A DNA stretch of 27,529 nt from positions 1-27,529 of IMG/VR virus record IMGVR_UViG_3300037264_007913; one strand, written 5' to 3'. A program made the position numbers and the translations under genes. The DNA comes from a virus. The notes under the pieces were generated by a model. The model saw only the letters and a list, made by a program, of their open reading frames with translations, did no database searches and was not told the origin of the DNA. Below, piece by piece: positions 7,826 through 25,519 of this stretch (the first letter of the stretch is position 1; every line of letters starts with the position of its first letter).

Positions 7826-10323
7826 GGCGTGGCCTCGTTCAGCACTTCACGCACCCGGAACCGCATCTGACAGACCTTGTCCGTTATCCACTCCTCCTCG
7901 AGTGCGTCGTCTACGAACCGCACGAACGACGCCTGCGTGATGCGCGCCACCAGCGACAGGTCGTTGATCGGCGAGACTCCCGAAAACGTGAGACGCCAGT
8001 CGCCACTGACGTTAGTAACGGAAGCGATCTTGAGGATGGTGATCGTGCCGTTCTTCTGGACGATCGCCAAGTACTCAATGAAGTCTTCCACGTCATCGAG
8101 GGAGTAGTTGATTGCTGCGACATCCACGTGCGTAAACTGGAGGTCGACCGGCTCGAACAAGATCGTCTCGGGGACGAACCAGAACGGGACAAGGCGCCCA
8201 CAGCGTGAATCGAAGAACCGCAGCAGGTAGTAGGCGTCGGCGCGGGCGTAGCACGCGAACCGCAGCTCGTACTGGAACTGGGGGCGCTCGGCACGAAGGC
8301 GCACACGTTCCGCGCGCCCCTGGCTGCGCTGATCTCCGGCACGCACGACCGTCGTCTGGAATTCCTCGGACCAGTTGTGCTGCACGCGTGCTATAGAGTT
8401 CGTCGACAGAATGACGGCCTCGCCGGCACCGACGTTGGCTGTGCTTTCTTGATCGCTGACCTCGAACTTGCCTTGGCCGCCCTGGTCGCTGCCGAAGTCG
8501 CCCTCGCTAGGCGGAAGCGCACACGAGGGCGCCTCCATGAACGAAACCCCGACGAAGCCGACCTTGTTGGTGACGTTGGTTATCAGGCTCTCAAGCTTGA
8601 TCTCCCAAGCAGCAAGTGGATAGACCATCGCGCGACCGGCAACGTAATCATCCGGACCCGGGAACGGATTAACGGGCGTGATGTCCCCAAGAGGGTCTAC
8701 CAGAGTAATCGCACCAGCAGCCAGAGCTGCCACAGTGCCCACCTGCGGGTTCGTGATGCGACCAGCGGAATCGTAACCATGGATCAGCACCTGGAACCCG
8801 ACGTGGAAGCGCCGGTGGGTCGTGTCGCACGGAATCGAGGTGCCGGTCGCAAGGCCGGTGGTCCGCGACTGGTCCATGTAGAGCGGTATGCGGACGCGGT
8901 CGCTGGCGGCCCGCATGAGGTGAATCTGGAGGCGCGCGACCTCCGCATCCGTCAGTCCGGTCCACCGCACGGTGAGCGTCCGCGTGGGACGATCAGCGAG
9001 TGCCCGGCGCTCCTCAGCCAGCGTCCCTGACGACTGCGTGAGGTCGGTCAGCCACGCCGTCTCGAGCTTGGGCGGCGCAGACCAGTCCTGTAGGAAGAAG
9101 TCCCGCGTCAGCGCATCGCAGACACAGACGCCGACCGAAAGCGGCCCGGCATAGCCGTTCGGGTAGCCGAACGGAACCTGAATGACATCGGCAGTCGCTC
9201 GCCAGACCACGAGCTTGTCAGCAACGCTGCTCGAGAGCCCGTCTTCCCAGTTGGCGACGTAGATGGCCGGCTCTGGATCTGTGATATTGACGGCAGGTGA
9301 CGGTTCGGCATTAGGGACACGTGTACGGCTATCGAACGCGTGCATCGACGAGTACTGACCGAACCGCCGTGCGTTGTTGGGACTGTCAGACAAGATCGTC
9401 AGGATCCACGTCACGCCGTTGGTCGTCTGCGCCAGTCCAAGGTCGCGCTCGCCAAAGAACGAGAGCGCGCTGTCCGAGAAGGTGACAAGCACATTGTCGT
9501 TGTCAGCCATGACGACGCCGCAAGTCACCAAGTCCGTTCCGACCGCCGCCTTGATAACAGCATGCGACCAACTCATGCCGCCATCGGCACTCTTGGCGAC
9601 CTTGAACGGATCGGGACCGACCGCGTACTTCTGGTAGAAGATGTAGATCGTCTGCAGGTCGATGGTCGCCATCTTGGCAACTATCACATCCCCGCCCGTG
9701 CCGATACCGGCCACCGCCCACGTCTCGCCGCAGTCGTCCGACTGCGCAAACTTCACATCGACCGCGAAGTCGTCGTAGGCGACGAGGACCGTAGCCTCGC
9801 TCGCTATCATGGTGGTATTCGCTGGGCTGCCGCTTCCGACCTCGCGCTCCGTCCAGGTAGCGCCATCGTCATTGGACTTGAACAGCAGCACCTTACTCGT
9901 GGCATAGCGAGCGCACGAAACCAGGATCTCAGATGGCATCACCAGTATGTCGTTGGCATCGCCCGAATTGCTGTCGACCGTCGTAACAGTCCACGTGGTT
10001 CCGCCATTGACGGACTTGGCGAACTTGAGCTTGCGAGGCGAGAATCCCTCGTTCCAGATAACGTAACACTTCTCGCAGTCGATCCGCACACGAACGTACT
10101 GATAGAACTGCCCTGCCGGCGCAACAGCTATGACCACCTCATTCGACCAAGTAGCGCCTGAATCTCGCGACTTGCGGAAATGAATGCGATGCTGTCCGTC
10201 TGGATGCGTAGCGACGTAGGCGAGGAAAACCTCCCGCCCGTTAGTCGTCCAGATGTCGTTGTCGTGCCCGCCGCCATCGGCGAAGCTCCCGACCTCGACT
10301 CGCTCGAACCGCGGATCGCTCAC
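7822..10323 (-). CDS. sialidase-like beta-propeller fused to distal tail / hub protein (833 aa)
   Basis: The first 340 residues carry five clear Asp-box motifs plus one degenerate copy: SRDSGATW (52), SVNGGTTW (104), SNDDGATW (150), SDDCGETW (195), SADGGMSW (245) and TTNGVTW (300). Spacing of 45-55 residues fits a six-bladed propeller of the BNR/sialidase fold. The rest (about 400-833) looks like a duplicated tail-tip module, for example RTLTVRWTGLTDAEVARLQ and later YYLLRFFDSRCGRLVPFWFV, as in distal tail proteins. The gene lies where a Dit protein is expected, between tape measure and BR0599-like protein. The GTG overlaps the previous stop as GTGA. Whether the propeller cleaves or only binds sugars is unknown: I did not identify the sialidase arginine triad. 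Confidence 0.7.
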   Translation of the reverse strand: MSDPRFERVEVGSFADGGGHDNDIWTTNGREVFLAYVATHPDGQHRIHFRKSRDSGATWSNEVVIAVAPAGQFYQYVRVRIDCEKCYVIWNEGFSPRKLKFAKSVNGGTTWTVTTVDSNSGDANDILVMPSEILVSCARYATSKVLLFKSNDDGATWTEREVGSGSPANTTMIASEATVLVAYDDFAVDVKFAQSDDCGETWAVAGIGTGGDVIVAKMATIDLQTIYIFYQKYAVGPDPFKVAKSADGGMSWSHAVIKAAVGTDLVTCGVVMADNDNVLVTFSDSALSFFGERDLGLAQTTNGVTWILTILSDSPNNARRFGQYSSMHAFDSRTRVPNAEPSPAVNITDPEPAIYVANWEDGLSSSVADKLVVWRATADVIQVPFGYPNGYAGPLSVGVCVCDALTRDFFLQDWSAPPKLETAWLTDLTQSSGTLAEERRALADRPTRTLTVRWTGLTDAEVARLQIHLMRAASDRVRIPLYMDQSRTTGLATGTSIPCDTTHRRFHVGFQVLIHGYDSAGRITNPQVGTVAALAAGAITLVDPLGDITPVNPFPGPDDYVAGRAMVYPLAAWEIKLESLITNVTNKVGFVGVSFMEAPSCALPPSEGDFGSDQGGQGKFEVSDQESTANVGAGEAVILSTNSIARVQHNWSEEFQTTVVRAGDQRSQGRAERVRLRAERPQFQYELRFACYARADAYYLLRFFDSRCGRLVPFWFVPETILFEPVDLQFTHVDVAAINYSLDDVEDFIEYLAIVQKNGTITILKIASVTNVSGDWRLTFSGVSPINDLSLVARITQASFVRFVDDALEEEWITDKVCQMRFRVREVLNEATP

Positions 10324-13217
10324 AGTGAGGGCTTCCGGCGATTCAACTGTGTATTGATGTCGCTGGCATTCTCGCGCATGAACTTCAACAGCGACGCCTT
10401 ACCGCCCGTGAAGATGCGATCAGCCGTCTGTTCGTTGGCGACCACGATGGCGCGAACAACGGTGGGACCTTGCCCACCCAGCGAATCGGACGACGTGTTC
10501 TGGTACGCAGACGCCACCAGGCCGCCCGCGCTATAGCCCGGCCCGCCACTCGGTCCCGAAGCTCTAGACCTGGTACCGGACCCGAGCGCCCGGACAAGGC
10601 CCGGATCTATGGCACCCTGGTTGAGCGCGTGCATGAAGGCGAGACCGTACTTGCGGACGGAAGCTGTGCGGTGAACGTACTCGCCAGCCATGAGCCACGC
10701 CGGCACCGTGTCGCCAGGGTGGACGCCGATCGGTCGCCGCAGGATCGGGCCGCCGGCCGCGAAGCCGCGAGCAAGGCCCCCGAGCGACCCGGCCGCGCCA
10801 GCGGCGGCCCCGCCGACCGAAGTCGCCACAGCCCCACCAGGGAACAAGCTACCGAACGCGGCAAGTAACGCGCGCGCGATAGCGAGCTTGATGATGAACT
10901 GCAAGATCTCCTGCGCAATCGCCTTGAGGAACTGCGCAAAGCGCGTCTTGAGATCGACCTTGCTAGTCGGATCGAAAGCGTCCACGATCGCCGCCGAGAC
11001 GGAAGCCGCCAGCGAATTGATGGTACCAGAAATCAAGCTGGCGACACCAGTGACAGCATCGGCCATCCTGTCTAGAGCGACATCGAGACCGCCTTCGCCG
11101 CTGCGCCCGAATATCACCTGCTCCAAGAAACTGGGCTCGGTAAGGGCCAGCGAACCAGCCGCATCTATTTCATTTTTGGCACCTCCGATCGCCTCGCGCG
11201 TACGCGTCTTTAATAGATCGGCAAGCTTCGGAAACGCCGTCTGAATCGCCTCTAGCAACTTACCTGTCAAGCCGCTAGCGACGCCAGCAATCTCTGCAGC
11301 AAAGCCCTTCGCGCCGGCCGCGCCTTCGGCCAGGCTGCGCTTGTTCTGCTCGCCTATCGCTTGCTGATTGATGAGTTCGTTGGTTATTTCCTGAATACCC
11401 TTCTTGGTTTTCGCCAACTCTTTATCGAGGTTAGTGCCGCCCAGAACCGCAGATTTAAGACCCGACTTGCCGCCGAAAAGGCCACTAAACTCCAGAGCCA
11501 ACACTTTGGCTTCTAGCACCAGCCTCTTCAGCAGCAAGAACAGGCCGTTTATACCAGTGGCTATGTCCTCAACTATGATGGCGCGCAACGAGCCAAAACT
11601 GGTATTAATCGGTGCCAGAGCGGCAGCAATCAGACCAATAACAATAGCAATCGTAGCCAGCGCAGCCAGCGTAGCCAGCGCAGGACTGACGAGCAGCGCC
11701 AACCCTGTCCCGATCTTGGTCAAGATCCCAGGAACTAGGAGCAGCGTCTCTGCCACTACCTTACCGAGCCCGACGAGGCCGCCGAATCCGACAGCCAGCG
11801 TCTTTAGGATCGGCGGAATAACGAGCAAAACGCCAGCGACTTCACCGAAGAACTTGACTAGATCATCTTCGCCGAACAGCACATCTACTACCTGCCGTAG
11901 ACCACCTACCAACGGAGCAAAAAAGTTAGCGAGCGCGCCCAGCGCAGCAGACGCACCAACTATCACGCCAGAAATAGCAGAACCGGCCACCGAAATCAGC
12001 AGACCCAGCGTCCTGGCCGCAGCAAGCACATCATTTAAGTCTAGATTGGCAACCAGCTGACGCGCTTTAGTTACAACTTCGGCAAGCCTGCCATCAATGG
12101 CGGCAATAACCTGTAGCGTTTCCGGTCTGATTCTGAGGACGCCATCCGGCCCGACGACAGTAACTAGCTTGATGAGATCAGCGACCAACCCCTTGACGCT
12201 CTGGAACAACGCATTCCCGCCCTCGCCTAGCAGCAGTCCCGCAATGTTCTTGAGCTTCGAGAACAGCCGATCGAAGGTGCCAGCAGACTGCACGCCAGCT
12301 ATATTGAACGCCACTAGCTTGCTCTGCAAGAAGGTGAACAGCGTGCCGGCGTCCTTTGCCCGGACCAGTGCCTCACGAGAGATACCGAGTTCGTTCTCTA
12401 GTCTCGTACGCGCACCCTGCTGTCGCGCAGCGAAGATCGCGACGACCTCGCGACCGAGGCGCTCCGTCGAAAGCCCGATCGTATCCGCAGCCTGCGTGAT
12501 TCCGACGGTAAACTGCCGGACCTGGTCAATATTGGACGCCCCGAAGGCACGCAGGCCAGGAGCGAGCGCAAGGTTGAAGGTCTTGGCAAGATCCTCAAAA
12601 GACGAGTTGGTCTGTAGCGCATCGAGGCGCAACTTCCTGACCTGGTCAGCCGCGATCCCCTGCGCGGCCCCGAACGCTTGCGCACCTCGAACAAGTTGAC
12701 CCTGGGCATTCCTGATCTGCGCGACTCCGGTCAGAATGGCCGTCGTATTCGAAATGACGCGCTCTTGCGACGCGCCGAACTCAATCGCGCCTTCAACTAA
12801 TTCGCGGAACCCTGCGCGAATCTCTCGGAGCGCGATTCGGAACAGCGCGAAAACAGCAATGCGCTTGCCTAGATCCGTCAGCGCCTGCGAGAAACTATGC
12901 GTGCTGCCGTCGGCTTCGCGGGCCTCGCGATTGTAGTTACGGATGTTGGCAACGGCGTTCTGAGTGATGTTCACCTGCGCCTGGAAAGCCCGGTTTTGGG
13001 CCTGCACAGCAGCGGTCACCTGGCCCACGGCAGCAGCCGCAGCGGCGCCTACAGTGCCGCCACCGGCAGCGCCTTGCCGCGCCTGCTGCTGGATGTCGAC
13101 GATCTGCTTCTGCAGCGCAGCGAGTTGCGCCTTTAGGTCACCAACTGCATTGATGGACTGGCTGACCTCGATGTTGATCGGGAAGTTCAATCCACCGCGA
13201 TCGACACCGTCAGCCAT
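10320..13217 (-). CDS. tail tape measure protein (965 aa)
   Basis: This is the longest gene and follows the tail chaperones, as tape measures do. Residues 22-100 form a coiled coil with Gln/Ala-rich helices. Residues 404-440 and 461-535 contain long hydrophobic stretches (for example ALATLAALATIAIVIGLI), thought to insert in the host membrane at injection. The C-terminal 150 residues are Gly/Ala-rich with GGPILRRPIGVHPGDTVPAW then MAGEYVHRTASVRKYG, a common tape-measure ending. By the usual rule of about 1.5 angstroms per residue the tail would be near 145 nm long. The start ATG follows the chaperone extension stop by three bases. Confidence 0.9.
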   Translation of the reverse strand: MADGVDRGGLNFPINIEVSQSINAVGDLKAQLAALQKQIVDIQQQARQGAAGGGTVGAAAAAAVGQVTAAVQAQNRAFQAQVNITQNAVANIRNYNREAREADGSTHSFSQALTDLGKRIAVFALFRIALREIRAGFRELVEGAIEFGASQERVISNTTAILTGVAQIRNAQGQLVRGAQAFGAAQGIAADQVRKLRLDALQTNSSFEDLAKTFNLALAPGLRAFGASNIDQVRQFTVGITQAADTIGLSTERLGREVVAIFAARQQGARTRLENELGISREALVRAKDAGTLFTFLQSKLVAFNIAGVQSAGTFDRLFSKLKNIAGLLLGEGGNALFQSVKGLVADLIKLVTVVGPDGVLRIRPETLQVIAAIDGRLAEVVTKARQLVANLDLNDVLAAARTLGLLISVAGSAISGVIVGASAALGALANFFAPLVGGLRQVVDVLFGEDDLVKFFGEVAGVLLVIPPILKTLAVGFGGLVGLGKVVAETLLLVPGILTKIGTGLALLVSPALATLAALATIAIVIGLIAAALAPINTSFGSLRAIIVEDIATGINGLFLLLKRLVLEAKVLALEFSGLFGGKSGLKSAVLGGTNLDKELAKTKKGIQEITNELINQQAIGEQNKRSLAEGAAGAKGFAAEIAGVASGLTGKLLEAIQTAFPKLADLLKTRTREAIGGAKNEIDAAGSLALTEPSFLEQVIFGRSGEGGLDVALDRMADAVTGVASLISGTINSLAASVSAAIVDAFDPTSKVDLKTRFAQFLKAIAQEILQFIIKLAIARALLAAFGSLFPGGAVATSVGGAAAGAAGSLGGLARGFAAGGPILRRPIGVHPGDTVPAWLMAGEYVHRTASVRKYGLAFMHALNQGAIDPGLVRALGSGTRSRASGPSGGPGYSAGGLVASAYQNTSSDSLGGQGPTVVRAIVVANEQTADRIFTGGKASLLKFMRENASDINTQLNRRKPSL

Positions 13218-13220
13218 CGA

Positions 13221-13544
13221 CTACTTCTTCCTCGCCTGCTGTGCAAACCTGGCAGCGAACGTGGCGTTCTTATCCGCACGATCCGTACCAGCGACCGGCG
13301 CATCCGACTGCGCGCCGCCTGCGTGCTCCTTCTTCGCCATGGCCGCCAGTCGCTCAGACGCACGCCCGACCGAGACAATGTCCATGTCGGCCACCTGTGC
13401 CACCGTACCGAAGCCGTGCGACGCCAGCGAGAGCACCACCTCCTCGAGCAGCTCGACTAACTCATCTCGCTCGGGACCGGCTCGAGGAGCCTCGGCTCGA
13501 CGCTTCCGGTCGGCATGCTTCCGTCCACGAACTCCTTCACGAAG
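13221..13544 (-). CDS. tail assembly chaperone G-T extension, read by -1 frameshift
   Basis: This frame is one base back from the gene at 13457-14044 and stays open well upstream of that gene's stop. Joined at the slippery site it adds 107 residues to 167 from the first frame, giving a 274-residue fusion close to lambda gpG-T. The extension contains a predicted helix RDELVELLEEVVLSLASHGFG that begins upstream of the only nearby GTG (13439), so an independent start would lose half the helix. That GTG also has its GAGGAG too close to work as a ribosome-binding site. Such fusions recruit tube subunits to the tape measure. The ending KNATFAARFAQQARKK is basic. Confidence 0.65.
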   Translation of the reverse strand, partial: LREGVRGRKHADRKRRAEAPRAGPERDELVELLEEVVLSLASHGFGTVAQVADMDIVSVGRASERLAAMAKKEHAGGAQSDAPVAGTDRADKNATFAARFAQQARKK

Positions 13545-14044
13545 CCCGGGATCTTCCCCACGAAAGGGGCGAACACGCTGGCGTTCGCCTCGACGATGCC
13601 CTGAACGATCTTCGCCGCCGTAGGTACGTCCACGTCCTTGAAAACGGCAAGCGCGTCGGCTGCGACAGGTCGCGCGTACTCCTCGCGCAGGCTGTCCGCA
13701 GCGAGCCGGGCGAAGATGTCGAGGTTCTCAGGCCGCATGAGCGACTCGACGAGTTCGACGATCGCCTTCTGCCGCCGATCGGCCACGACCTTGTACGCCT
13801 CAAGCGTGATCGCGGACGGCTCGACGGTGACGAACTGGCGTTCGCCCCCCTTGCCGTCGCGCACCGTCTCCTGCGACGACTTCTTGAAGCTGTCGCTGGC
13901 GAGCGCCGCGATAGCTGACAAGATCGGTTTGGCAACGGCGCGCAGTTGCAGCACCATCGCCACCGACGCGGCGTAGAACCGCAGCGGCTGCCCGTTGATC
14001 TCGCGCTCGATGAAGTCCGGCGTGAGAAAGCTCTTGATGCCCAT
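13457..14044 (-). CDS. tail assembly chaperone (gpG-like, 195 aa)
   Basis: It lies between the tail tube gene and the tape measure, the invariable place of the gpG-type chaperone. The product is mainly helical: IKSFLTPDFIEREINGQ, then AVAKPILSAIAALASD, a charged stretch, and KAIVELVESLMRPENL. It has no membrane segment. Chaperones of this kind hold the tape measure before the tube assembles around it. Start ATG at 14044 has an AGGAGG-type site (CCAGGAGGACACC). A CCCGGGC heptamer in register X XXY YYZ at 13544-13550 would divert some ribosomes into the G-T extension. Identity rests on position and the overlapping -1 frame rather than on sequence motifs. Confidence 0.75.
   Translation of the reverse strand: MGIKSFLTPDFIEREINGQPLRFYAASVAMVLQLRAVAKPILSAIAALASDSFKKSSQETVRDGKGGERQFVTVEPSAITLEAYKVVADRRQKAIVELVESLMRPENLDIFARLAADSLREEYARPVAADALAVFKDVDVPTAAKIVQGIVEANASVFAPFVGKIPGFVKEFVDGSMPTGSVEPRLLEPVPSEMS
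13544..13550 (-). promoter_or_regulatory. probable -1 ribosomal frameshift site (CCCGGGC)
   Basis: In the gpG-like frame the codons are ATC CCG GGC, so the heptamer reads C CCG GGC and satisfies X XXY YYZ. Slipping back one base gives CCC GGG CTT and enters the 107-residue extension. It is the only heptamer of this form I found between the point where the -1 frame is open and the end of the first gene. GC-only slippery sites are not the usual ones (GGGAAAG or A-rich), so this is an inference. Confidence 0.5.
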
Positions 14045-14063
14045 GGTGTCCTCCTGGTGCCCC

Positions 14064-14090
14064 GCGGCCGGCGTCTCCCTCGCCGGCCGC
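14064..14090 (-). terminator. strong hairpin between tail tube and chaperone genes
   Basis: A perfect 10-bp GC stem (GCGGCCGGCG with CGCCGGCCGC) and a 7-base loop fill most of the 60-base gap. There is no U-tract after it (GGGGCACC follows), so complete termination is unlikely. It could reduce read-through, or shield the upstream tail tube message from 3' exonucleases, matching the need for far more tube protein than chaperone. Confidence 0.5.
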
Positions 14091-14104
14091 TATCCATAGA
14101 CGCC

Positions 14105-14959
14105 TTACGGCGCGAACGCGTTGGCGTGCGTCGTGATGTTGAAGTAGGGCGAAGACGCGTCGGCGATCTCGTTCAACTCGCAGACGCCCTTGAGCGAGAA
14201 CTTCGACACGTCGTCGCTGATGAAACCCAGGTCCCCGTCGAGAGCGAGCGCGATCTTGTGAATCTGCATCTCGATCTGCGCGTCGTTGTTCGCCGGGTTC
14301 TCGCCGATGAACACGAGCGCACCTGCGGTCGGCGTGCTCGTCAGCGCCCACACGCGCTCCAGCACAACTGCGCCGGCATCGGCAGCGAGCGTCACGTCGA
14401 TGTCGTCACCCGGAGCGTAGTTCGCGCCGCCCTGGATGAAGAAGATCCTACCCATCTGTTCGTCGACTTCATAGTCGGTGCCCTCGACGAGGAGCACGTC
14501 GGGCGCACCCTGCTTCTCGACGGTGAGGTTGGCGGTCGCGATGTCATAGGCGCGAACCCCGGTCGCGTTCTGGATCGGGTACCACCGACCCTCCGCTACC
14601 GCCGAGATCATCTCGTACTCAGCGAAGCCGGCGATGGCCGAGTTCGTGGGCTGCGGACTGGCGATGGAACCCGAGAGGGCGAACGCGAGGTTCTCGAAGT
14701 TCGTGACCTCGTCCAGTTCGCAACTGAACTCGAACTTTTGCCCTGTAATGATCGTCTTGTCGATCGTCGCGAGACCCGACCGAGACGACTTGTGGTCGAT
14801 CTTGTCCGTCGTCGCCGTCAGCTTGGCTGACGGCGCGTTGCCAAGGTCGCGGTAGCCGCCGGCCGGGAGATCGGCAGTCAGCGACGAAAAGTAGAGGATC
14901 CCGCGGCCGACGAGGTAGTCGTCGGTACTCGCGCGACCTGAGATATTGATGCCGGGCAT
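14105..14959 (-). CDS. major tail tube protein (284 aa)
   Basis: The sequence has the usual tube-protein features: INISGRASTDDYLVGRGILY at the start, RDLGNAPSAKLTATTDKIDH (the N-terminal strand and loop), then KFEFSCELDEVTNFENLAF, and near the end FSLKGVCELNEIADASSP. This pattern, with a strand-rich core and a repeated 'tube' motif, fits a protein that stacks as hexamers around the tape measure. A central insertion of about 90 residues (LTVEKQGAPDVLLVEGTDYEV to VLERVWAL) may be an extra surface domain. Position is right: before the chaperones and after the completion genes. The ATG has a GGAG site upstream. Confidence 0.8.
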   Translation of the reverse strand: MPGINISGRASTDDYLVGRGILYFSSLTADLPAGGYRDLGNAPSAKLTATTDKIDHKSSRSGLATIDKTIITGQKFEFSCELDEVTNFENLAFALSGSIASPQPTNSAIAGFAEYEMISAVAEGRWYPIQNATGVRAYDIATANLTVEKQGAPDVLLVEGTDYEVDEQMGRIFFIQGGANYAPGDDIDVTLAADAGAVVLERVWALTSTPTAGALVFIGENPANNDAQIEMQIHKIALALDGDLGFISDDVSKFSLKGVCELNEIADASSPYFNITTHANAFAP

Positions 14960-14974
14960 TGATGGCTCCTTTCG

Positions 14975-16957
14975 TTACGCAGGGCGCATCCGCGCCTGGA
15001 AGGTGTAGGTGACCCTGGTTCCCCTGGTACCGTTTTGCTGCACGGGGTGTGTCGGCGCGGCGCTGACCAACTCCAGAATGATCGAAGCATACCGCTGTAG
15101 TTGCACGTCGGGCAGTTTGACCACCTTGACCCGTATCGGCTTGTCGAGCAACCGCTGCTCGAAAGCCTCGCACGTTACCTCGACATTGAAACCGAGTATC
15201 AGGTCGAACGTCCAGGTCGCCCGCTGCCTCACGAGTCGCCGCCGGTTACTGCCAACAACGAACGTGGAACTCGTCTCGTTGACTAGTGCTTCGGCCGGCA
15301 ACACAGAAGCGCCTAGCGTAACCAGCTTTGTGTCTTTGTCGTACTGCCTCTTGTAAAACAGCCCAGACATGGCGGCGGAAACTAGCGCATTCTGCACACG
15401 AACCACATCCGACACAACAGCCATGACTACCGTAGCTCCGAAAGTACTGTCGACTTCCTCTGCAAGTCCGACAGCGACAATCTTTTCAGCCGTGGCCGCA
15501 AGAGCCGAATCGGTTTCCGTTGACTGCCCGACCGTAACAACTTTCAGGACAGTCAGCAGTTGCGCTGCATCCACCTCCGTTGCCTGATTAACTTGTATGA
15601 ATTGATTGGACTGCAGAGCCAGTGCATCGTCTGTTTCTAGTGCCAGTGCTATTGCAACTAACTTACCGGCCGAAACAGAAAACGGACTGTCAACTTCCTC
15701 CGCGTAGCCGACAGTGTAACCGTGCTCCGCAGTGATAGCAAGCCCGGTATCCGTTTCCTCGACTAGCCCGGTAGTCGAGGTCTTCTTGCTGGTGGTTGCG
15801 AGTCCTGTATCCGTCTCCTCGGCTAGTCCGACAACCGCAGTCTTCTCAGCAACCGCAGCGAGCCCGGTATCCGTCTCCTCGGCTAGTCCGACAACCGCAG
15901 TCTTCTCAGCAACGGCAGCGAGCCCGGTATCCGTCTCCTCAGCTAGTCCTGTCGCCAGGATCTTCTTGGTTGTGGCCGCGAGGCCGGTGTCCGTCTCCTC
16001 CGCCAACCCAACAACCACAGTCTTTTCGGCAACGGCAGCGAGTCCGGTGTCCGTCTCCTCGGCGAATCCGACTGTGTAGGTTCTTTCGGCGGTGGCTGCG
16101 AGCCCGGTGTCGGTCTCCTGCGCCTGACCAACGGCGATCGTTTGCCCTGTAGAAAGTGGTAGCCCTTCGTCCGTCTCCGAAGCCAGCCCGACTGTGTAGG
16201 TTCTTTCGGCGGTCGCCGCGAGGGCTGTGTCGGTCTCGCTCGAGAGCCCTGTCGCCAGGGTCTTCTTGGTTGTGGCCGCGAGGGCGGTGTCCGTCTCCTC
16301 AGCCAGCCCGACCGCCGTAGTCGTGTGCTGGTCACTGATCGCCAAAGCCGCGAACGACACGTCGTCGCTCGAACCGGCGGTGTAGCCAATCGTGAAGTCA
16401 CTGGTTCCGGCGGTAGTCTGTCTGTCAACCCTCTGGATCTCGTTACCGGAATCGTTGTCGTGTACGGCGCTCATGCTTGCGACAAGCGTGTAGTCGGTTA
16501 CGTTAGAGAGACCGCCACCCAGAGCGCAGACCGAAAGACACGACTTACCGCCGTACTGCAAAGTCACTTGCGGGTTTTGGATATCTTCGCTGATACCGTC
16601 CGTGTCTTTGACGAAGCAGTTGGCCGCCCCGGTGAACGTTAGGCAGCACATCATGAAGTCGTCACCGGTCGCCGAAGTCAGGTCAACCGAGACCGTTTGC
16701 GCGCCGGTAGGGATGCCCGTACCGAGAAACCAGAGTTGTGTGTTAGTCTGTTCGCCCGAAGTGTCAACGTTCTCCTTGATCTTGGCGAGCGCAACCCCTC
16801 CGTAGGTGACGCCCGCTATCTGATCCGTCGAGGACGTGTAGTTGATGAGCGCGACCACGACCGCCCGCGGCGTTCCCGCAGGCGTGTGCGAAAAAGTCCA
16901 CGGATCGGTCGTGGCTGTGCGGATACTCTCGGTCGCGAAGTCGAAGGCGACCGTCAC
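14975..16957 (-). CDS. virion-associated protein with beta-sandwich domain and 15 x 20-residue repeats (660 aa)
   Basis: Three parts are visible. Residues 1-210 form a beta-sandwich resembling a domain common in phage and bacterial surface proteins (WTFSHTPAGTPRAVVVALIN, IAGVTYGGVALAKI, MMCCLTFTGA). Residues 213-512 are fifteen repeats of exactly 20 residues with consensus VGLAEETDTGLAAxxEK. Residues 513-660 form a separate domain (RATWTFDLILGFNVEVTCEAFE, then HPVQQNGTRGTRVTYTF) that may be the part bound to the tail. It lies between completion genes and the tail tube gene, so it is probably a tail or neck component displaying an extended arm. The GTG start has only a weak ribosome-binding site. 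Confidence 0.75.
   Translation of the reverse strand: MTVAFDFATESIRTATTDPWTFSHTPAGTPRAVVVALINYTSSTDQIAGVTYGGVALAKIKENVDTSGEQTNTQLWFLGTGIPTGAQTVSVDLTSATGDDFMMCCLTFTGAANCFVKDTDGISEDIQNPQVTLQYGGKSCLSVCALGGGLSNVTDYTLVASMSAVHDNDSGNEIQRVDRQTTAGTSDFTIGYTAGSSDDVSFAALAISDQHTTTAVGLAEETDTALAATTKKTLATGLSSETDTALAATAERTYTVGLASETDEGLPLSTGQTIAVGQAQETDTGLAATAERTYTVGFAEETDTGLAAVAEKTVVVGLAEETDTGLAATTKKILATGLAEETDTGLAAVAEKTAVVGLAEETDTGLAAVAEKTAVVGLAEETDTGLATTSKKTSTTGLVEETDTGLAITAEHGYTVGYAEEVDSPFSVSAGKLVAIALALETDDALALQSNQFIQVNQATEVDAAQLLTVLKVVTVGQSTETDSALAATAEKIVAVGLAEEVDSTFGATVVMAVVSDVVRVQNALVSAAMSGLFYKRQYDKDTKLVTLGASVLPAEALVNETSSTFVVGSNRRRLVRQRATWTFDLILGFNVEVTCEAFEQRLLDKPIRVKVVKLPDVQLQRYASIILELVSAAPTHPVQQNGTRGTRVTYTFQARMRPA
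15422..16321 (-). repeat. 60-bp tandem repeat array (15 units) inside the 660-residue gene
   Basis: Units are all exactly 60 bases, keep frame, and code for VGLAEETDTGLAAxxEK-type repeats. Units around 15830-15950 are nearly identical at DNA level, whereas those toward both ends (for example 15480-15660) have diverged, so recent copying has occurred in the middle of the array. Conserved core: ETD in thirteen units, E(V)D in the rest. Confidence 0.9.
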
Positions 16958-16960
16958 GCG

Positions 16961-17434
16961 TCAGCTCGCTCGGAAGAAGCCAGCGGCGTTGAGCTGGGCG
17001 GTGATGTCGGAACCATCCGGCGTAACCGCGAAGTCGAGCGACACAAGCGGCACGATGTTGGTGTCCGTCCCGCCCGTAGTGTCCGAGTCGTAGCAGATCA
17101 GCAGTTTGCTCCACGTGTCCCCGGCGGCGACCGCCGTCCATGTCGGATCCGGGAAGTCCACGTCCTGCCGGTCGTTGGTGTCGTCCGTCGTGATCGTGAT
17201 ACCGCCGGCCTGATCCAGCGTCTTGCGCACATAGCCCGCGTTCTCAGGCTCCGTGCTGCCGCCGTCGATGATCGCCTGCAGCGTGTCCAGATCCTTGAGG
17301 AGCGCATCGGACTGCAGTCCGGTCGTCTCGAGAACGACGAGGATGAGCGCGGCGTTGGTCGGGTCATTCGCATTGACCCTGGCCGCATACTCGGCGACCT
17401 TGCCCTTCGCGATGTTGAAAACGAAGTCTGCCAC
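16961..17434 (-). CDS. putative virion structural protein (157 aa)
   Basis: The GTG at 17434 has AGGAG 6-7 bases upstream. The product opens MADFVFNIAKGKVAEYAARV, followed by an alpha/beta region (NAALILVVLETTGLQSDALL) and a beta-rich C-terminal half with TWSKLLICYDSD and a final LNAAGFFRAS. I have seen proteins with this opening in many phage structural cassettes but with no defined role. It is three bases from the repeat-protein gene and follows the connector-like gene, so head-tail joining or tail completion is plausible. Confidence 0.65.
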   Translation of the reverse strand: MADFVFNIAKGKVAEYAARVNANDPTNAALILVVLETTGLQSDALLKDLDTLQAIIDGGSTEPENAGYVRKTLDQAGGITITTDDTNDRQDVDFPDPTWTAVAAGDTWSKLLICYDSDTTGGTDTNIVPLVSLDFAVTPDGSDITAQLNAAGFFRAS

Positions 17435-17443
17435 TGGTCTCTC

Positions 17444-18016
17444 CTACGTAACGCCATCCGGGCACTGCCCGGCATAGTCGGGAAACTGGCTACCGAACTG
17501 CCTGCGCCGCCGCGGGAAGATGCTGGCACCCGGCAGATCGGATGGCTGGTCCGGCTCGAGTATCGTCGCCTTGACCCGGACCTCCTGCGTCTCGGTACCG
17601 AGCAGGATCTCCAGCATGGCGTCGACCTGCCCTTGCAGTTCCTCGATCTCTGACGCAAGCACCTTCCCCTGCGCCCGGAAAGCGGCCTCGTCGTTCCAGA
17701 TCTGGTTGATGTTGGCCGACCCGTCGATAAACATCTGAGGCATGCGCTGCATGAGCAGTAACCGGCACCAGATGATCTCGCAGGCATTGGCACGTGCGCG
17801 AGTAAGCTCCTCCGGATCTTCGGGATTCTCTGCGTACGTGAACCCCTCCAGCTCATTGACCCTAACCGAACCGAGTCGGTCGTAGAACCCGAGGCGCACC
17901 TCCTCGATTGCCTGGTCAATGATCTGCGCCGCGTCGCTGACGCTCGGCGAACCCGTGAGGCGCAGACGCGCTATGAGGGTCGCTCGATTGGCAACGAACA
18001 GCGGCTCCGTAGCCAC
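17444..18016 (-). CDS. putative head-tail adaptor protein (190 aa)
   Basis: The N-terminal 110 residues are helical and fit head-completion/adaptor proteins: NRATLIARLRLTGSPSVSDA, IIDQAIEEVRLGFYDRLG, then TRARANACEIIWCRLLLM. A coiled-coil helix (VLASEIEELQGQVDAMLEI) and a basic proline-rich tail (IFPRRRRQFGSQFPDY) follow. Adaptors of this type form a ring under the portal. Start is a GTG with a weak site. It is the second of three short genes between capsid and tail; assignment is by shape and position, not a specific motif. Confidence 0.55.
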   Translation of the reverse strand: MATEPLFVANRATLIARLRLTGSPSVSDAAQIIDQAIEEVRLGFYDRLGSVRVNELEGFTYAENPEDPEELTRARANACEIIWCRLLLMQRMPQMFIDGSANINQIWNDEAAFRAQGKVLASEIEELQGQVDAMLEILLGTETQEVRVKATILEPDQPSDLPGASIFPRRRRQFGSQFPDYAGQCPDGVT

Positions 18017-18027
18017 GCGTTAGCAAC

Positions 18028-18468
18028 TCACTTCCCGAAGTCCAGCGAGAGCTGCGCCGCAGCCTCGCGGGAATCCAAAAACGGCGCCATGTGCGGATCG
18101 CGCTCGCGCACCAGGCTGTTCAGTTCCGCGATCGTCTTGCCGTCGAGCTTCTTGGGGTCGATCTGCCACGGAGAGGCGCGCTTCGGCTGCCCGGCGACGA
18201 TGCCGGTGATTTCCTTCTGGGTCATGCCGCCGGTCTTGGCAGCAAGATCGCCGACCGGATCGATGGTAGGATTCGTGACCGGCGGCGGAACTCCGTCACC
18301 TAGCTTCGAGTCCTCGGCGACGACATGCCGCTCGCGAATACCATCCTCGAGCCACTGGCGGCTGACCGCGTCTGCGGGCACGATCTCGCCAGGCTGCAGC
18401 AGGCGCTCGGTAGCACCCTTCCGCAGAAGCACAGTGCAGCCGTGCGCAACCCTGAAAACCTGACTCAC
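18028..18468 (-). CDS. putative head-module protein of unknown role (146 aa)
   Basis: The GTG at 18468 has GGAGG 6 bases upstream. It opens VFRVAHGCTVLLRKG, followed by ERLLQPGEIVPADAVSRQWLEDG, which resembles a small beta-domain placed early in phage head genes; the rest is polar with a Pro-rich linker (GVPPPVTNP) and ends with REAAAQLSLDFGK. No membrane or catalytic motif. It could be an accessory head protein such as lambda FI; this is a guess from position just after the tRNA and before the adaptor candidate. Confidence 0.6.
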   Translation of the reverse strand: MSQVFRVAHGCTVLLRKGATERLLQPGEIVPADAVSRQWLEDGIRERHVVAEDSKLGDGVPPPVTNPTIDPVGDLAAKTGGMTQKEITGIVAGQPKRASPWQIDPKKLDGKTIAELNSLVRERDPHMAPFLDSREAAAQLSLDFGK

Positions 18469-19128: not shown

Positions 19129-20199
19129 TCAGACGCCCGAAACGACCTTCATGGAGACCATGCTGCCAGGACGGCGCGGCACCGGCAGCGGACGCCCGTG
19201 CAGCAGCGCCCACATGAGCGACGGATCCTCCGTGATCCACGACTTGGAAAACCGCTCGGCCTGCTGGAACATGCCGGCGCCGAGCGCCTTCATGTCGGGA
19301 ATCGCGCCGTAGTAGAGAACGTTCTCGGCGGCCGGCGTGACGCAGAGGAACTCCGCGTACTTGGATCGCACCAGCGCAGTCGAGACCCCGTTCACCGAAA
19401 CCGTGCGGCTGTATTCCCACACCTGGATCCCGCTGAACCAGCCGTGGAAGATCGCGCCGTCCTCGTTGAACTGCGACTGCAGGTCGACGTTACCGACCCC
19501 GAAGCCGGGCATCTGGAGGCCGTAGCCGATGAACTGCTTCTTCAACAGCGTGAGGAACGCGCCGCTCGCCGCCTGTCCGAGGATGCAGTGCGTCGGCACG
19601 AGCCCGACCGCGTTCGAGATGAGCCGCTTCGCCGTGAGGAAGTCCTGCTCCATGGTCGGGAGCGAGGAGTCCGGGTCGTCCCAGAACGTGGCGAGAATGA
19701 CCGTGTTGCCGGCAGGCTTCGGGAACGTGATGAGGAAGTTCGCCTGATCCGCGACCTGGTAAGAGATCGCGCCCTGGATCGCCAGCGAGATCAGGTACTC
19801 CTCACTGTTGGTCTCGAGGTCGGCTAGCACCTGCATGTCGCGCGCGACGTGCATGTCGATCATCGCGTTAAGCGACGCCGACGAATCCTGAAAGATGGTC
19901 CCCCCAGGACGCCGGCCCTCGAGCAGCTCGCTCGGGGTGAACGGTCGCTTGATGCGGATCGACGGCGCCGTGACCGACTGGAACGTCTCGCCGTGCCCGG
20001 CGACCATGACGCCCTCGGCGCCGTAGCCGACGAAGGGCGCCGTCTCGCGCGCCTTGGTCAGCACGTCGATCTCGATGGTTCCGGTCGGCTTGGTCTCATG
20101 GTTGCTGAAAACGAGCCGCCGCAGGAACTGGTTCGGCGACTTCATCTCGTTGACCGCAGCGGTCAGCGAAGCCACCGTCAACTGGTCGATGGTGCTCAT
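19129..20199 (-). CDS. major capsid protein, lambda gpE type (356 aa)
   Basis: Length and motifs fit the gpE family of HK97-fold capsid proteins: NQFLRRLVFSNHE near the N-terminus, RPFTPSELLEGRRPGG (the conserved strand and turn), ALVRSKYAEFLCVTPAAE in the C-terminal A domain, and KSWITEDPSLMWALLHGRPL at the end. The subunit assembles the icosahedral shell with scaffold and protease from the genes just upstream. No cleavable N-terminal delta domain is obvious, as in lambda E. ATG with GGAG upstream. The gene order protease-scaffold, decoration, capsid is the lambda order C/Nu3, D, E. Confidence 0.85.
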   Translation of the reverse strand: MSTIDQLTVASLTAAVNEMKSPNQFLRRLVFSNHETKPTGTIEIDVLTKARETAPFVGYGAEGVMVAGHGETFQSVTAPSIRIKRPFTPSELLEGRRPGGTIFQDSSASLNAMIDMHVARDMQVLADLETNSEEYLISLAIQGAISYQVADQANFLITFPKPAGNTVILATFWDDPDSSLPTMEQDFLTAKRLISNAVGLVPTHCILGQAASGAFLTLLKKQFIGYGLQMPGFGVGNVDLQSQFNEDGAIFHGWFSGIQVWEYSRTVSVNGVSTALVRSKYAEFLCVTPAAENVLYYGAIPDMKALGAGMFQQAERFSKSWITEDPSLMWALLHGRPLPVPRRPGSMVSMKVVSGV

Positions 20200-20210
20200 G
20201 GTGGATCTCC

Positions 20211-20630
20211 TCAGTGCGCCGCGTCGAGGCCCTGGACGAGAAGGCCGCGCTCGACGAGCCCGTTGCGGAGCGCAGTCTTGAGGTTCGCCTCGGTCTCGTT
20301 GACGTTTCCGCCGTTGACGACGAGCGTCAGTAGGATGTCGTCGAGGTGGATCTTGCCGCGCTGCATGACCTCGCCAAGCACCTCGTCGGCGGCACTCGTC
20401 TGCACCTTATTGGGGTAGACGAAGCCGTCGACCGTCTGTCCGTTCGTCCACACCTTGACATGGTTCGACGCGCCGCCGTCGAAGTAGATCGGAGTCGCGA
20501 CGACGTACTTGTCTGCCGCAACCACCGTGTTGAAGGTGCGCGTGAAGACGCCACCATCTCGGGCAGGCGCGATCCGCGGGTAGGACTCGCGATCGACCGC
20601 CTCGAACAACTCGTTGTCGCCGAGTGCCAT
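20211..20630 (-). CDS. putative head decoration protein (139 aa)
   Basis: It lies between scaffold-protease and major capsid genes, where lambda D sits. The sequence is beta-rich: AADKYVVATPIYFDGGASNH, VDGFVYPNKVQTSAADEVLG, HLDDILLTLVVNGG. It ends with a helix TALRNGLVERGLLVQGLDAAH. Decoration proteins trimerise on the capsid surface to hold it against DNA pressure. The sequence is not obviously the classic lambda D family, so the call is by context and size. Its ATG has GGAGAG upstream, 12 bases after the scaffold stop. Confidence 0.6.
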   Translation of the reverse strand: MALGDNELFEAVDRESYPRIAPARDGGVFTRTFNTVVAADKYVVATPIYFDGGASNHVKVWTNGQTVDGFVYPNKVQTSAADEVLGEVMQRGKIHLDDILLTLVVNGGNVNETEANLKTALRNGLVERGLLVQGLDAAH

Positions 20631-20642
20631 GGGTATCTCTCC

Positions 20643-21680
<1,038 letters not shown>

Positions 21681-21683
21681 AGG

Positions 21684-21712
21684 TTGGAAATTAGCCTCCC
21701 GCGCTGTAGAAT
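21684..21712 (+). promoter_or_regulatory. sigma70-like promoter for the portal gene
   Basis: TTGGAA at 21684-21689 and TAGAAT at 21707-21712 are separated by 17 bases, giving four of six and five of six matches to the consensus. Transcription would begin near 21719, leaving about 28 bases before the portal ATG with TAGG as ribosome-binding site. It lies in the only divergent gap of the window. Confidence 0.5.
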
Positions 21713-21746
21713 GCAAGTGATTCAACCACAATGCTATAGGTATCAC

Positions 21747-23201
21747 ATGCCCGATAGCCACAACTTTTCACGCATCCGGCCGCCCACGAGGCCGCTCTAC
21801 CCGCAGCACGCAATGGCGCTGCTCGACGTACTGATGAAGGGAGACGAGCCGCCCCCCGGCGCCCCCTCCCGCCAGTCGGTGTCGGCCGGCCGCAAGTGGC
21901 ACCCGTTCGACATGCGACAAGCAACACAATTCCAAGTGGCGAACATCCATCACTCCACCTGCATCCACGCCAAGGCTGCCAGCACTGTGGGCATGGGTTT
22001 TGAGAACGATAAAGTCGCCGAATTGCTGGATCCGCTCTGCGAAATCGGCTTCCAACCGGTGCTAAACACGCTGGCCGAAGACTACTACCAAGTCGGTGGC
22101 GCATGGCTGGAAGTCATCCGCGCCGCCGGAAGCGGCCTCGGCCCCCTCACCGGCTTGCACTGGGTTCCGGCCTCTCAAGTCTACGTCGTCATCGAAAACG
22201 AGCAAACGTACGATCGACACTACGAAGTAGACTCCCGCGAAGGGGCCGGCACCCGCATCTACGCCAAGTTCGGCGACCTCGACGGACTGAGGAAGCGGAT
22301 GGGCGGTGGCGCACGGAGCCTGACTTTCGCCGGTACCAACGTCGGTCCAGACGACAGGATCGCCGAACTGATCTACGTGCCGCGAACCAGCACGCTCTCG
22401 CGCTGGTACGGCATGCCGGACTGGTTGGCGGCAACAGCGACAATCGAACTGTCGCAGATGCACAAGCAGCACTACTACGACTTCTACAACAACCGCGGCG
22501 TTGCCGAGTTCCTGCTCTGGATCATCGGCGAGGACTTCTCGAAAGAGGAGTGGCAGCGCATCGTCGACTCGCTCAAGGGCAACATCGGCGACGGGAACAA
22601 GAGCAAGTCGAACGCGTTCAACCTCAAGAACGCAGAAGCACGCGTGCAGGTCGACCGCTTAGCGCTAGGCGAGGACGTGTCCGGCCAGTTCGCCCCGCTG
22701 TCGGACGTGAACGCCCAGGAGATCGTCTCGGCACACCGCGTCCCGCCCCTGCTGGCCGGTATCCAGATCCCCGGGAAGATGGGCGCCGTGAACGAGCTAC
22801 CCAACGCGCTCGTGGCCTTCCAGATCCTGGTCGTAGGCCCGGCGCAGCGCACTTTCCAGACCGTCCTCGGCAACACGCTAGGAAACCCGAAGTTGAACGG
22901 CGGCCTCGGCCTCACGAAAGCCGACTTCAACCTCCACGAAATCACGGCGCAACTCGACATCGCAGCGATTGACACCGCAGCCAGGATGCAAGACCCCGCC
23001 AACTCGGAGCGCGGACAGCGACGGCTGGCAGCTGTCGGCGCAGCGCCGAACGGTACCCAACGCGGCCTCGGCGGCGCCATGCTCAAGAACGACCTCATCG
23101 AAGACCTGCTCAATCGCGCCCTGTCGATCGCACAGTCCAAGCCGAATCACACCGAACACGACGCTGCCCTACTAGACGCAATAGAAGCCGCGCGTGGCTG
23201 A
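21747..23201 (+). CDS. phage portal protein, PBSX family (484 aa)
   Basis: The ATG at 21747 has a TAGG seven bases upstream; an ATG at 21711 lacks a site, and the long open frame before it is antisense to other genes. Landmarks of PBSX-type portals: FQVANIHHSTCIHAKAAST, GLHWVPASQVYVVIENEQ, DRIAELIYVPRTSTLSRWYG, HYYDFYNNRGVAEFLLWIIG, and DVNAQEIVSAHRVPPLLAGI. The last is the clip/crown region with the highly conserved AHRVPP. The portal forms the dodecameric ring through which DNA passes. It is on the opposite strand to the terminase, protease and capsid genes on both sides. The stop overlaps the next start by eight bases. Confidence 0.9.
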   Translation: MPDSHNFSRIRPPTRPLYPQHAMALLDVLMKGDEPPPGAPSRQSVSAGRKWHPFDMRQATQFQVANIHHSTCIHAKAASTVGMGFENDKVAELLDPLCEIGFQPVLNTLAEDYYQVGGAWLEVIRAAGSGLGPLTGLHWVPASQVYVVIENEQTYDRHYEVDSREGAGTRIYAKFGDLDGLRKRMGGGARSLTFAGTNVGPDDRIAELIYVPRTSTLSRWYGMPDWLAATATIELSQMHKQHYYDFYNNRGVAEFLLWIIGEDFSKEEWQRIVDSLKGNIGDGNKSKSNAFNLKNAEARVQVDRLALGEDVSGQFAPLSDVNAQEIVSAHRVPPLLAGIQIPGKMGAVNELPNALVAFQILVVGPAQRTFQTVLGNTLGNPKLNGGLGLTKADFNLHEITAQLDIAAIDTAARMQDPANSERGQRRLAAVGAAPNGTQRGLGGAMLKNDLIEDLLNRALSIAQSKPNHTEHDAALLDAIEAARG

Positions 23202-23721
23202 CGAACGCCTCGAGATCGCACTGACAGACGCGCTAGCCGAAGTCTGCCTGCGCGTCGCAAAGACAGCCATCCCATCGAAAACGCTCGTTACAGCCCTCAA
23301 GATCCGGCGTCGCGCGTCCAACGAAGTGACGCTTTCGGTGCCGCACTACTGGGCTGTCTACCTACACGACGGCCGCGGGAACGTCACACCGAAACAGGGT
23401 AGCTACCTAGCCTGGTTCATCAATCCAGCAGACGACCCGCGCCTTGTCTCCGGTGCCGGTCCTGAACGACTCACGCAGGTCCGCTACCTGCGCGAAGTCT
23501 GGACGCGCGAACAGTTGGTCTCCGCACTGCGCTCCGGCAGGTTGGTTTTCGCCAGGGAAGCGTCTTCCACGCTACCTGGCGCGCGTTTCTTCGTGGAACC
23601 GCCAATGTCTACGCTTGCGCAGACCGAAGAAATACAGGCAACAGCCAGGCGAGTGATCGCACAACACTTAGCAGATCAGTTACCGCCGGATTCGACCTTC
23701 AAAGTTACTTTCCCGTTGTGA
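23194..23721 (+). CDS. putative neck / virion morphogenesis protein (175 aa)
   Basis: The GTG at 23194 overlaps the portal stop, so the pair is one operon. The sequence has an N-terminal helix (ALTDALAEVCLRVAKTAIPS), then SVPHYWAVYLHDGRGNVTP, and a conserved-looking RFFVEPPMSTLAQTEEI. The 'YWAVYLHDGRG' core followed by a proline-rich stretch resembles HK97 gp10-like and Mu virion morphogenesis proteins that form the neck or tail completion ring. I regard this as likely but not certain. The last 46 bases overlap the end of the convergent zinc-ribbon gene. Confidence 0.6.
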   Translation: MADERLEIALTDALAEVCLRVAKTAIPSKTLVTALKIRRRASNEVTLSVPHYWAVYLHDGRGNVTPKQGSYLAWFINPADDPRLVSGAGPERLTQVRYLREVWTREQLVSALRSGRLVFAREASSTLPGARFFVEPPMSTLAQTEEIQATARRVIAQHLADQLPPDSTFKVTFPL

Positions 23722-23939
23722 CGCGTCAATCGCAACTTGGTTTCCGGGTCGCTGATCTGCCTAGAGAGCGCCCTGGCGCCGTCTCCATGGCCGTTGGCCT
23801 CACGAACTACCATGGTAATGGACAACAGAGTAAACACTGCGTCACACGGCCCGCAAACCGCCCGCTGCGTTCGCGAACCATCGCCTACGTTGAAAACGTG
23901 TGTGATCTCGAGCCGCCCATTGCAGTGCGGACACTTCAC
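23676..23939 (-). CDS. zinc-ribbon protein (87 aa)
   Basis: Four cysteines form a CPHC (3-6) and CGPC (29-32) pair with 22 residues between them: a zinc ribbon at the N-terminus resembling the first part of NrdR or the transcript-factor type ribbons. The strand between (THVFNVGDGSRTQRAV) and VFTLLSITMV after it fit that fold. The rest is charged and shows no ATP-cone. The GTG overlaps the terminase stop as GTGA. A role beside the terminase, or in late gene control, is possible. No function is proven by the sequence. Confidence 0.7.
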   Translation of the reverse strand: MKCPHCNGRLEITHVFNVGDGSRTQRAVCGPCDAVFTLLSITMVVREANGHGDGARALSRQISDPETKLRLTRHNGKVTLKVESGGN

Positions 23940-25519
23940 GGGTCGACTCGCATGCCGATACGCCGACCACCGCGCCTGGCATCGCGCTCGGAATCCAGAG
24001 TCGAATGCAAGAGACCGCTATGGCCGTCGTACATGGCATAGATAAGCGCCTCGGCGCGATCGGGCGAGCCTGCCTCTGGATCTGCCTTGCGAACGCGATC
24101 CCGGTAATCGTCCTTGGCCTCCACCAATAGCTTACCCTGTGCATTCAGGTGGTACCGTCTATTGCTGAGTTGCTGCACTAGTTGCGAATCATTGGGTATG
24201 CGGACCTTGCGCTCCCGCACCTTAGCCGCTAGCTGAAACCACGCTTCCGTGATCCTGTTACCGTACTGCCGATCCGTAGCCGCGGCACCGTTGTTGAAAG
24301 GTAACAGCCGTTTCTTGGCGTCGTAGAACCTACGAAGCAGCCCCTGGCCCATGCCGCCGGCATCAACGCAGTACACAACCTGGTCGTCCTTCCAGCCCAG
24401 CTGCGCCTGCGCCTTGAAGGCGTAATCGATGAGTTGGTTAGGATCTATCTGCTGAAATGCCTTCCATTCTTCGACAGCACCGCCTACACGCAAGAAGATG
24501 ACGTTCTCGTCCTGCCCAAAACGTGCAAAATCTAGCCCTATCTGATAAGCAAACGGGTCATCAGGATCGTCCTGCCGCATCCCTGGATGCTTGAGGAGTC
24601 GAAGCGCGCGCGCGTCCGTGACAGTACAGCCCTCTAGGTCTTCCGACGCCATGATCGTGTCCGGGTCGGCATTCGGAAACTGCCCCTGCACGCGTACCCG
24701 GTAAGGCGTCGAATTAAGGCCGAACTCGCGCTCAACCCTGCTGTTTCGCTCTGGGTCAAACCAGATGGAATGCGGCGTCTCCTCGGCATTCAGAGTGATA
24801 CAGTACCAGTCAGCACGCTGACTGTGGAAACAGTCGAAGAACGCACAATCGCGCGTGTTGGGATTGCCGATCATCAAGAACAACGCATTGCGGTTGGTGA
24901 GGGTGCCCTTGAAAGTGGTAATTATACCTCTAGGAATGCCGCTCGATTCCTCCGCAACCACCGTCAAGTTTTCTTGATGAAACCCGGCCGCATTCTCCTC
25001 CCGAGAAGCCGTCACCAGCCGTATGCCCCACACCTCGCTACCAGCAATGTCCACACGCGTATTAGTAGGCTGGACGATGGCCGCAAGCAGCGGATCCGCG
25101 TGCTTGAGTTGCCGCTTGAACTCCGCAAGCCATATGTCGCGATTCTGTCGCATAGTAGGCGAAGTCACGACCGTAAGCGCATCCACGTAGCGAACAGTTC
25201 GCCAGCCACCAATCAAACCGGCTATTGTAGTCTTGCCAGGCCCCTGGCCGGACTTGACCGCTACGTAACGATGCGGACCCGGCGCGTCGGTCTCGCCGCT
25301 TCGGCACCTGCGGCACCGGAACGGCTGATCGCCTGGCCGCTCTGGATAGCCGCACTGCACGGCCTCGAAGACCTCGGCCTGCTGGTCGGTGGGCACGAAC
25401 GAGAAGGCGGCGCAGTACTCGAAGATGCTGCCTCGAATACGGCTGTATAGTTCTTCAACTCGTCGCTCGAGGCGCAGGAGTTCATTCCTTCTGTGCGGGC
25501 GAGCACGCGTCCTCGGCAC
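23936..25519 (-). CDS. terminase large subunit (527 aa)
   Basis: Walker A is KSGQGPGKTT (89-98). Walker B is LTVVAEESSGIP (185-196), where the expected Asp-Glu is Glu-Glu. The nuclease domain has Asp330 (IGLDFARFGQDEN), Asp386 (CVDAGGMGQG) and Asp487 (PDRAEALIYAMYDG), the three metal ligands of the RNase H-like fold. The enzyme cuts concatemeric DNA and drives it into the head. Before Walker A a Cys cluster (QCGYPERPGDQPFRCRRCRSG, 55-75 region) looks like a small metal-binding insertion. The start GTG overlaps the 49-residue gene by 38 bases. A terminase small subunit is not identified. Confidence 0.9.
   Translation of the reverse strand: MPRTRARPHRRNELLRLERRVEELYSRIRGSIFEYCAAFSFVPTDQQAEVFEAVQCGYPERPGDQPFRCRRCRSGETDAPGPHRYVAVKSGQGPGKTTIAGLIGGWRTVRYVDALTVVTSPTMRQNRDIWLAEFKRQLKHADPLLAAIVQPTNTRVDIAGSEVWGIRLVTASREENAAGFHQENLTVVAEESSGIPRGIITTFKGTLTNRNALFLMIGNPNTRDCAFFDCFHSQRADWYCITLNAEETPHSIWFDPERNSRVEREFGLNSTPYRVRVQGQFPNADPDTIMASEDLEGCTVTDARALRLLKHPGMRQDDPDDPFAYQIGLDFARFGQDENVIFLRVGGAVEEWKAFQQIDPNQLIDYAFKAQAQLGWKDDQVVYCVDAGGMGQGLLRRFYDAKKRLLPFNNGAAATDRQYGNRITEAWFQLAAKVRERKVRIPNDSQLVQQLSNRRYHLNAQGKLLVEAKDDYRDRVRKADPEAGSPDRAEALIYAMYDGHSGLLHSTLDSERDARRGGRRIGMRVDP

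Follow-up and report, generated by a model that had tools for sequence, protein, structure and literature searches.

In phage P2, the portal and terminase genes form the Q-P operon, which diverges from the scaffold and capsid genes O-N-M-L, and one annotated activator site lies between them. Another member of the Peduoviridae shares this type of divergent layout, and one set of coordinates serves both directions in Smp131, a P2-like phage (PMC3931495). Related PBSX-type portals are also found in psiM100, phiH (for which an XkdF-like protease is annotated), CGphi46, RHph_TM16, Dorin, and Mildred21, but in these phages the portal, protease, and capsid genes lie on one strand. Divergence of the portal and capsid genes in the manner of P2 is already known. 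What is new here is an arrangement in which the terminase large subunit gene (terL) lies outside the portal operon, fixed across an uncultured lineage, and a palindrome at the portal start, which is present in about half of the contigs.

The portal-neck gene pair and its neighbors

The DNA that we analyzed, referred to here as the window, is the whole of the IMG/VR virus record IMGVR_UViG_3300037264_007913 (27,529 bases), which comes from a metagenome-type collection and probably represents about half a genome. Its main features are as follows.

3961..18468, minus strand: connector and tail genes, downstream of the capsid gene, in an order kept in relatives
10320..13217, minus strand: tape measure gene, among the tail genes
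19129..20199, minus strand: major capsid protein gene, Phage_cap_E (Pfam PF03864, E 2e-42)
20211..20630, minus strand: decoration-like protein gene, a putative function, assigned by location and by comparison with decoration genes in phages that share this capsid family
20643..21680, minus strand: XkdF-type capsid protease gene (Pfam Peptidase_S78_2, E 3e-15)
21681..21746, no strand: divergent gap of 66 bp between the protease GTG (21680) and the portal ATG (21747)
21684..21712, plus strand: sigma70-like promoter-like site, TTGGAA-17-TAGAAT, reading toward the portal gene (from its pair score and shuffles)
21688..21716, minus strand: weak promoter-like pair, TTGCAT-17-TAATTT, reading toward the protease gene (score 9.0; z 2.2)
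21733..21744, no strand: palindromic element GCTATAGGTATC, lineage consensus GATAGATCTATC (from relatives and placement)
21747..23201, plus strand: portal protein gene of the PBSX/P2 type, 484 aa (PHROG 68; TIGR01540 and Pfam Phage_portal, both below cutoff)
23194..23721, plus strand: neck-like gene, 175 aa, with the motif VPHYWAVYxHDGRG, co-oriented with the portal gene in relatives
23676..23939, minus strand: zinc-ribbon gene, converging on the neck gene (homologues adjoin terL)
23936..25519, minus strand: terL (PHROG 2, E 6e-31; orthologues 39 to 48% identical)

An earlier, sequence-only reading of this DNA had placed the portal gene and a partner on the plus strand, between the minus-strand protease, capsid, and tail genes on one side and the minus-strand zinc-ribbon and terminase genes on the other. 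Open reading frames and profile matches confirmed this map. The convergent overlap of 46 bases that had been described between the partner and the zinc-ribbon gene is exact (23676-23721, from the zinc-ribbon stop at 23676-23678 to the neck stop at 23719-23721); it is not conserved, because a relative (L012) has the same two genes without overlap. A terminator-like match follows the neck gene at 23715-23736, and such matches are no commoner than chance. The GTG at 21680 is most likely the start of the protease gene, which sets the divergent gap at 21681-21746.

The portal reading frame is open from the ATG at 21747 to the stop at 23201. Its product matched the PHROG 68 portal family (E 4e-10) and TIGR01540, portal_PBSX (E 6e-20), the latter with 71.7 bits against a curated cutoff of 166; the portal of a relative (L002) scored 112.6 bits against the same cutoff. 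The Pfam Phage_portal match reached 37.4 bits (cutoff, 39.1). Judged by E-value, the window portal is homologous to the PBSX portals of TIGR01540, short of certified membership because the cutoff was missed. One relative's portal is 42 to 43% identical to it. When a model of the neck protein (pLDDT 74) was examined for a fold in common with HK97 gp10-like or tail completion neck proteins, the best match, the tail completion protein of SaPI1 (9mu2_P), was weak (Z 6.9 over 76 residues).

Several other features of the window are recorded here in their own right. A tRNA-Met gene (anticodon CAT) lies at 18487-18558 on the minus strand, between the capsid and connector genes. A 660-residue protein with many VGLAEETDTGLAA-type repeats is encoded on the minus strand at 14975-16957, between the connector and major tail genes, and the C-terminal region of the protease contains an Ala-Pro run that stems from a GCGGGC tandem repeat (21005-21066). 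On the plus strand, the gene at 614-1348 has an NPPYG motif and probably encodes a DNA adenine methyltransferase. It sits beside a RuvC-like gene (13-339) whose homologue in relatives comes after the neck gene, on the other strand.

Portal orientation across the lineage

We gathered relatives with three query proteins, neck, capsid, and portal (the protease alignment was too variable for use as a query), and merged overlapping records into 93 distinct contig groups. The portal and protease genes are on opposite strands in all 78 distinct contigs that hold both. The portal gene is likewise opposed to the capsid gene (72/72 distinct contigs) and to the decoration gene (76/76), and it shares a strand with the neck gene (72/72). 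Two further portal scans yielded eight new contigs with both portal and protease genes (L233, L236, L237, L238, L248, L275, L348, and L353), all of which agree. The search of related phage genomes for portal orientation that had been suggested thus found portal-protease divergence in every contig with both genes. The aligned portals of the relatives are about 32 to 44% identical to that of the window. Portal-protease divergence is a long-fixed trait of an uncultured phage lineage.

Since the window is a single virus record from a metagenome-type collection, its layout might have been a misassembly or a recent inversion private to this record. The orientation survey (78/78 plus 8/8 further contigs) excludes both, and we consider their probability negligible; the reading frames are also intact. 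The small inversion that had been offered as the origin of the pair is therefore not supported, as the orientation is fixed across the lineage. Short inverted repeats were looked for at the edges of the segment, and none joined the two edges, as would be expected for an old arrangement.

No isolates of the lineage were found. The neck protein had no match among phage records, and the closest portals there are less than 30% identical. To look for the host, portal alignments were run twice against bacterial and archaeal genomes, and no relative was returned. Whole-contig maps gave a common order, in which terL and the zinc-ribbon gene are followed by the tail, connector, capsid, decoration, and protease genes reading one way, the portal-neck pair reading the opposite way, and then RuvC-like, polymerase-type exonuclease, helicase-like, and other replication-type genes in the capsid direction. 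Two contigs look complete, at about 55 kb, because their ends carry direct repeats (127 bases in one and 68 in the other).

Orthologues of terL were found in 19 of 30 long contigs, their strands being derived from contig coordinates. In 17 of the 19, the gene is far from the portal gene, as a rule beyond the end of the tail genes, and on the portal strand. It is also far from the portal gene in G020, on the capsid strand. In G027, to which L012 belongs, it is near the neck gene and convergent with it, which is also the arrangement of the window and of the short contigs L011 and L151. The claim that the portal gene opposes every other structural gene consequently holds for the window but not for most relatives, in which terL is on the portal strand. 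The small zinc-ribbon gene travels with terL, with homologues beside it in G002, G003, G011, G012, and G020. The cysteine spacing of the window zinc ribbon, CX2CX22CX2C, is close to the CX2CX22CX4C reported for the P2 zinc-finger activator Ogr, which makes the gene a lead for a candidate late regulator. Its identification as a certified Ogr was not reached: the sole Ogr_Delta match, from one zinc-ribbon homologue, had an E value of 0.036 and fell below cutoff.

The lineage resembles P2 in that the two portals belong to one broad family (the PBSX type being included in TIGR01540) and are read away from the protease or scaffold and capsid genes, with divergent transcription out of a short shared gap. 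It differs in pairing the portal gene with a neck-like gene and leaving terL outside, whereas terL is in the portal operon of P2, and its protease and capsid belong to other families. A second non-P2 group with divergent head genes consists of the prophage-like contigs L292-L301 and L304, several of which have isolate-genome style names, and the layout therefore extends past the Peduoviridae. In this group, an XkdF-type protease gene, and the capsid gene where seen, diverge from the portal gene as in the lineage. The group differs from the lineage in that its portals are 22 to 27% identical, terL directly follows the portal gene on the same strand (where seen), and the palindrome is lacking. 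A gp10-like gene sometimes stands behind the portal gene in these contigs. In a portal tree, P2 groups with the prophage-like contigs and the clade of the window stands apart; a single origin of the divergent layout was not rejected (p-AU 0.17).

The divergent gap and its palindrome

The gap is mostly 57 to 140 bases long in relatives. Its G+C content is 45% in the window, compared with 62% for the whole window, and the relatives' gaps have a lower G+C content than their own locus in 50 of 50 contigs (mean, 0.48 versus 0.59). In both directions, the promoter-like pairs of these 50 gaps outscore dinucleotide shuffles (mean z 0.68 and 0.55), an effect that is modest per locus. The TTGGAA-17-TAGAAT site of the sequence-only reading is present as described (TTGGAA at 21684-21689 and TAGAAT at 21707-21712). 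It ranks third among the 275,010 hexamer pairs scored in the window, behind two pairs that both lie inside a tail gene, and its z of 3.1 against shuffles is stronger than the lineage mean. A search of Rfam found no known RNA in the gap and only a tRNA elsewhere. The proposal that the pair is a separate unit with its own promoter was borne out as to the divergence of the pair and the presence of a good promoter-like site; the AT-rich gaps of relatives, enriched in promoter-like pairs both ways, suggest putative promoters facing each operon.

When words and dyads were counted in the gaps, GATA-N4-TATC stood out. Copies of this palindrome in the relaxed form G[AC]TA-N4-TA[GT]C number 35 in 21 kb of gap sequence and 22 in the remaining 918 kb, a 69-fold enrichment. 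A weight matrix built from these copies, the window's own included, scored above 99% of the null in 40 of 78 contigs and above 95% in 50 of 78, and a clear palindrome is absent in about half of the contigs. Whole records mostly contain zero to two copies, with four in one record. The only copy in the window ends two bases before the portal ATG. Because one copy anywhere in a sequence of this size is not rare by chance (22/100 shuffles), what gives it weight is where it lies and what the relatives show. The distance from the palindrome to the portal start downstream is mostly 0 to 48 bases in other contigs, and a Shine-Dalgarno-like stretch often follows it directly on the 3' side. Among the eight further contigs, five have it at the portal start and none has it elsewhere; four of the five form one subclade and are not fully independent.

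In the half-site, G[AC]TA[GC], there is independent variation at the second pair (A or C against T or G), which would be expected of a site bound by a dimer. The outer pairs, at positions -1/+12 and -2/+13, are each Watson-Crick in 20 of 29 non-redundant sequences, a level reached by none of 500 shuffles. This covariation would fit a stem formed in RNA, or else a symmetric operator that is recognized differently from one lineage to another. We lean toward a DNA operator rather than an RNA hairpin, because many of the copies would give only a weak RNA stem.

In a subclade with long gaps (for example, L050, L060, L061, L048, and L174; alignment A6, columns 213-230), the palindrome is preceded by a hairpin of seven pairs that shows compensatory and G-U changes and has 79% of cells paired; its covariation score was reached by 6 of 500 shuffles. 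Further palindromes, CTGCC-N4/5-GGCAG and AAATCGCGATTT, surround it.

Short elements next to start codons are known from other phages. Start-associated sequences in cluster K mycobacteriophages are short conserved elements directly upstream of start codons (PMC3203893), and inverted repeats occupy this position in Microbacterium cluster EG phages (PMC7302621). Those elements occur about 8 to 19 times per genome, at many genes, whereas the palindrome of this lineage is near single-copy and located at the portal gene. Within the part of the literature that was covered, our search turned up neither an inverted portal-neck pair nor a palindrome described as an operator for the portal.

Proposed separate control of the portal gene and its alternatives

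We propose a two-gene late operon, made up of the portal and neck genes of a siphovirus-type lineage and divergent from the protease-capsid-tail operon. The short gap would serve as a bidirectional promoter region in which two late transcripts start back to back, a short one for the portal and neck proteins and another for the protease, decoration, capsid, and tail proteins. In about half of the lineage, the window included, the palindrome 5' of the portal ribosome-binding site or start codon would be bound by a dimeric regulator or would form an RNA hairpin, giving a regulator a handle on the portal gene that the capsid operon need not share. Promoter activity, binding at the palindrome, and any effect on the amount of portal are what we infer from these sequences. 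The promoter enrichment of the gap and the nearness of the palindrome to the portal start make separate control of the portal gene plausible. On the model as a whole, in which a fixed divergent operon, a bidirectional promoter gap, and a palindrome together set portal expression apart from that of the capsid, our judgment is evenly poised. A bolder version seems to us improbable. In it, portal synthesis would be under feedback from a phage protein, perhaps the portal itself, with the palindrome acting as a dedicated DNA or mRNA operator. If it were true, portal rings would be made in step with heads despite the opposite strands, and the portal vertex would have a private dosage circuit, retained throughout an uncultured phage lineage.

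The main rival is a shared late switch, in which a single activator or repressor site would turn on both operons instead of setting portal dose, as between pP and pO in P2. The single annotated activator site for both P2 promoters and the shared coordinates in Smp131 (PMC3931495) are precedents. A switch of this kind would also suit the symmetry of the palindrome and its near-uniqueness in each genome, and a single late promoter could serve the entire head-tail block. Against this stand the asymmetric placement of the palindrome, hard against the portal start, and its unlikeness to the P2 site TGT-N12-ACA, which the window gap lacks and which was seen in 1 of 50 contig gaps, with 1.0 expected by chance. 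We regard a shared switch as possible, on the doubtful side.

It is rather unlikely that the orientation is a frozen accident, in which an ancestral pair was inverted, both directions kept adequate promoters, the strands do nothing, and the palindrome is an unrelated control element. Gene order in the lineage is strongly conserved in general, and a one-strand arrangement of all head genes serves related portal families well; but terL has changed both place and strand among members of the lineage, portal-protease divergence has stayed constant throughout, and similar divergent layouts recur in the Peduoviridae and the second prophage group. A palindrome that is near single-copy and adjoins packaging-related genes could also be a packaging or replication site (of the cos/pac type or an origin element) that came to lie at the portal start by chance. 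Its position, however, tracks the portal start and the Shine-Dalgarno-like stretch, and the 78 contigs continue across the gap instead of terminating in it, so that we hold this to be very unlikely.

The P2-style divergent layout reaches beyond P2-like phages, and it does not require the terminase gene in the portal operon. Head assembly has long posed the question of how about twelve portal copies are made against several hundred capsid subunits. If the proposed separate control of the portal gene holds, a lineage with its own portal-neck operon and, often, a near single-copy palindrome at the portal start would offer a naturally isolated control point for portal expression.
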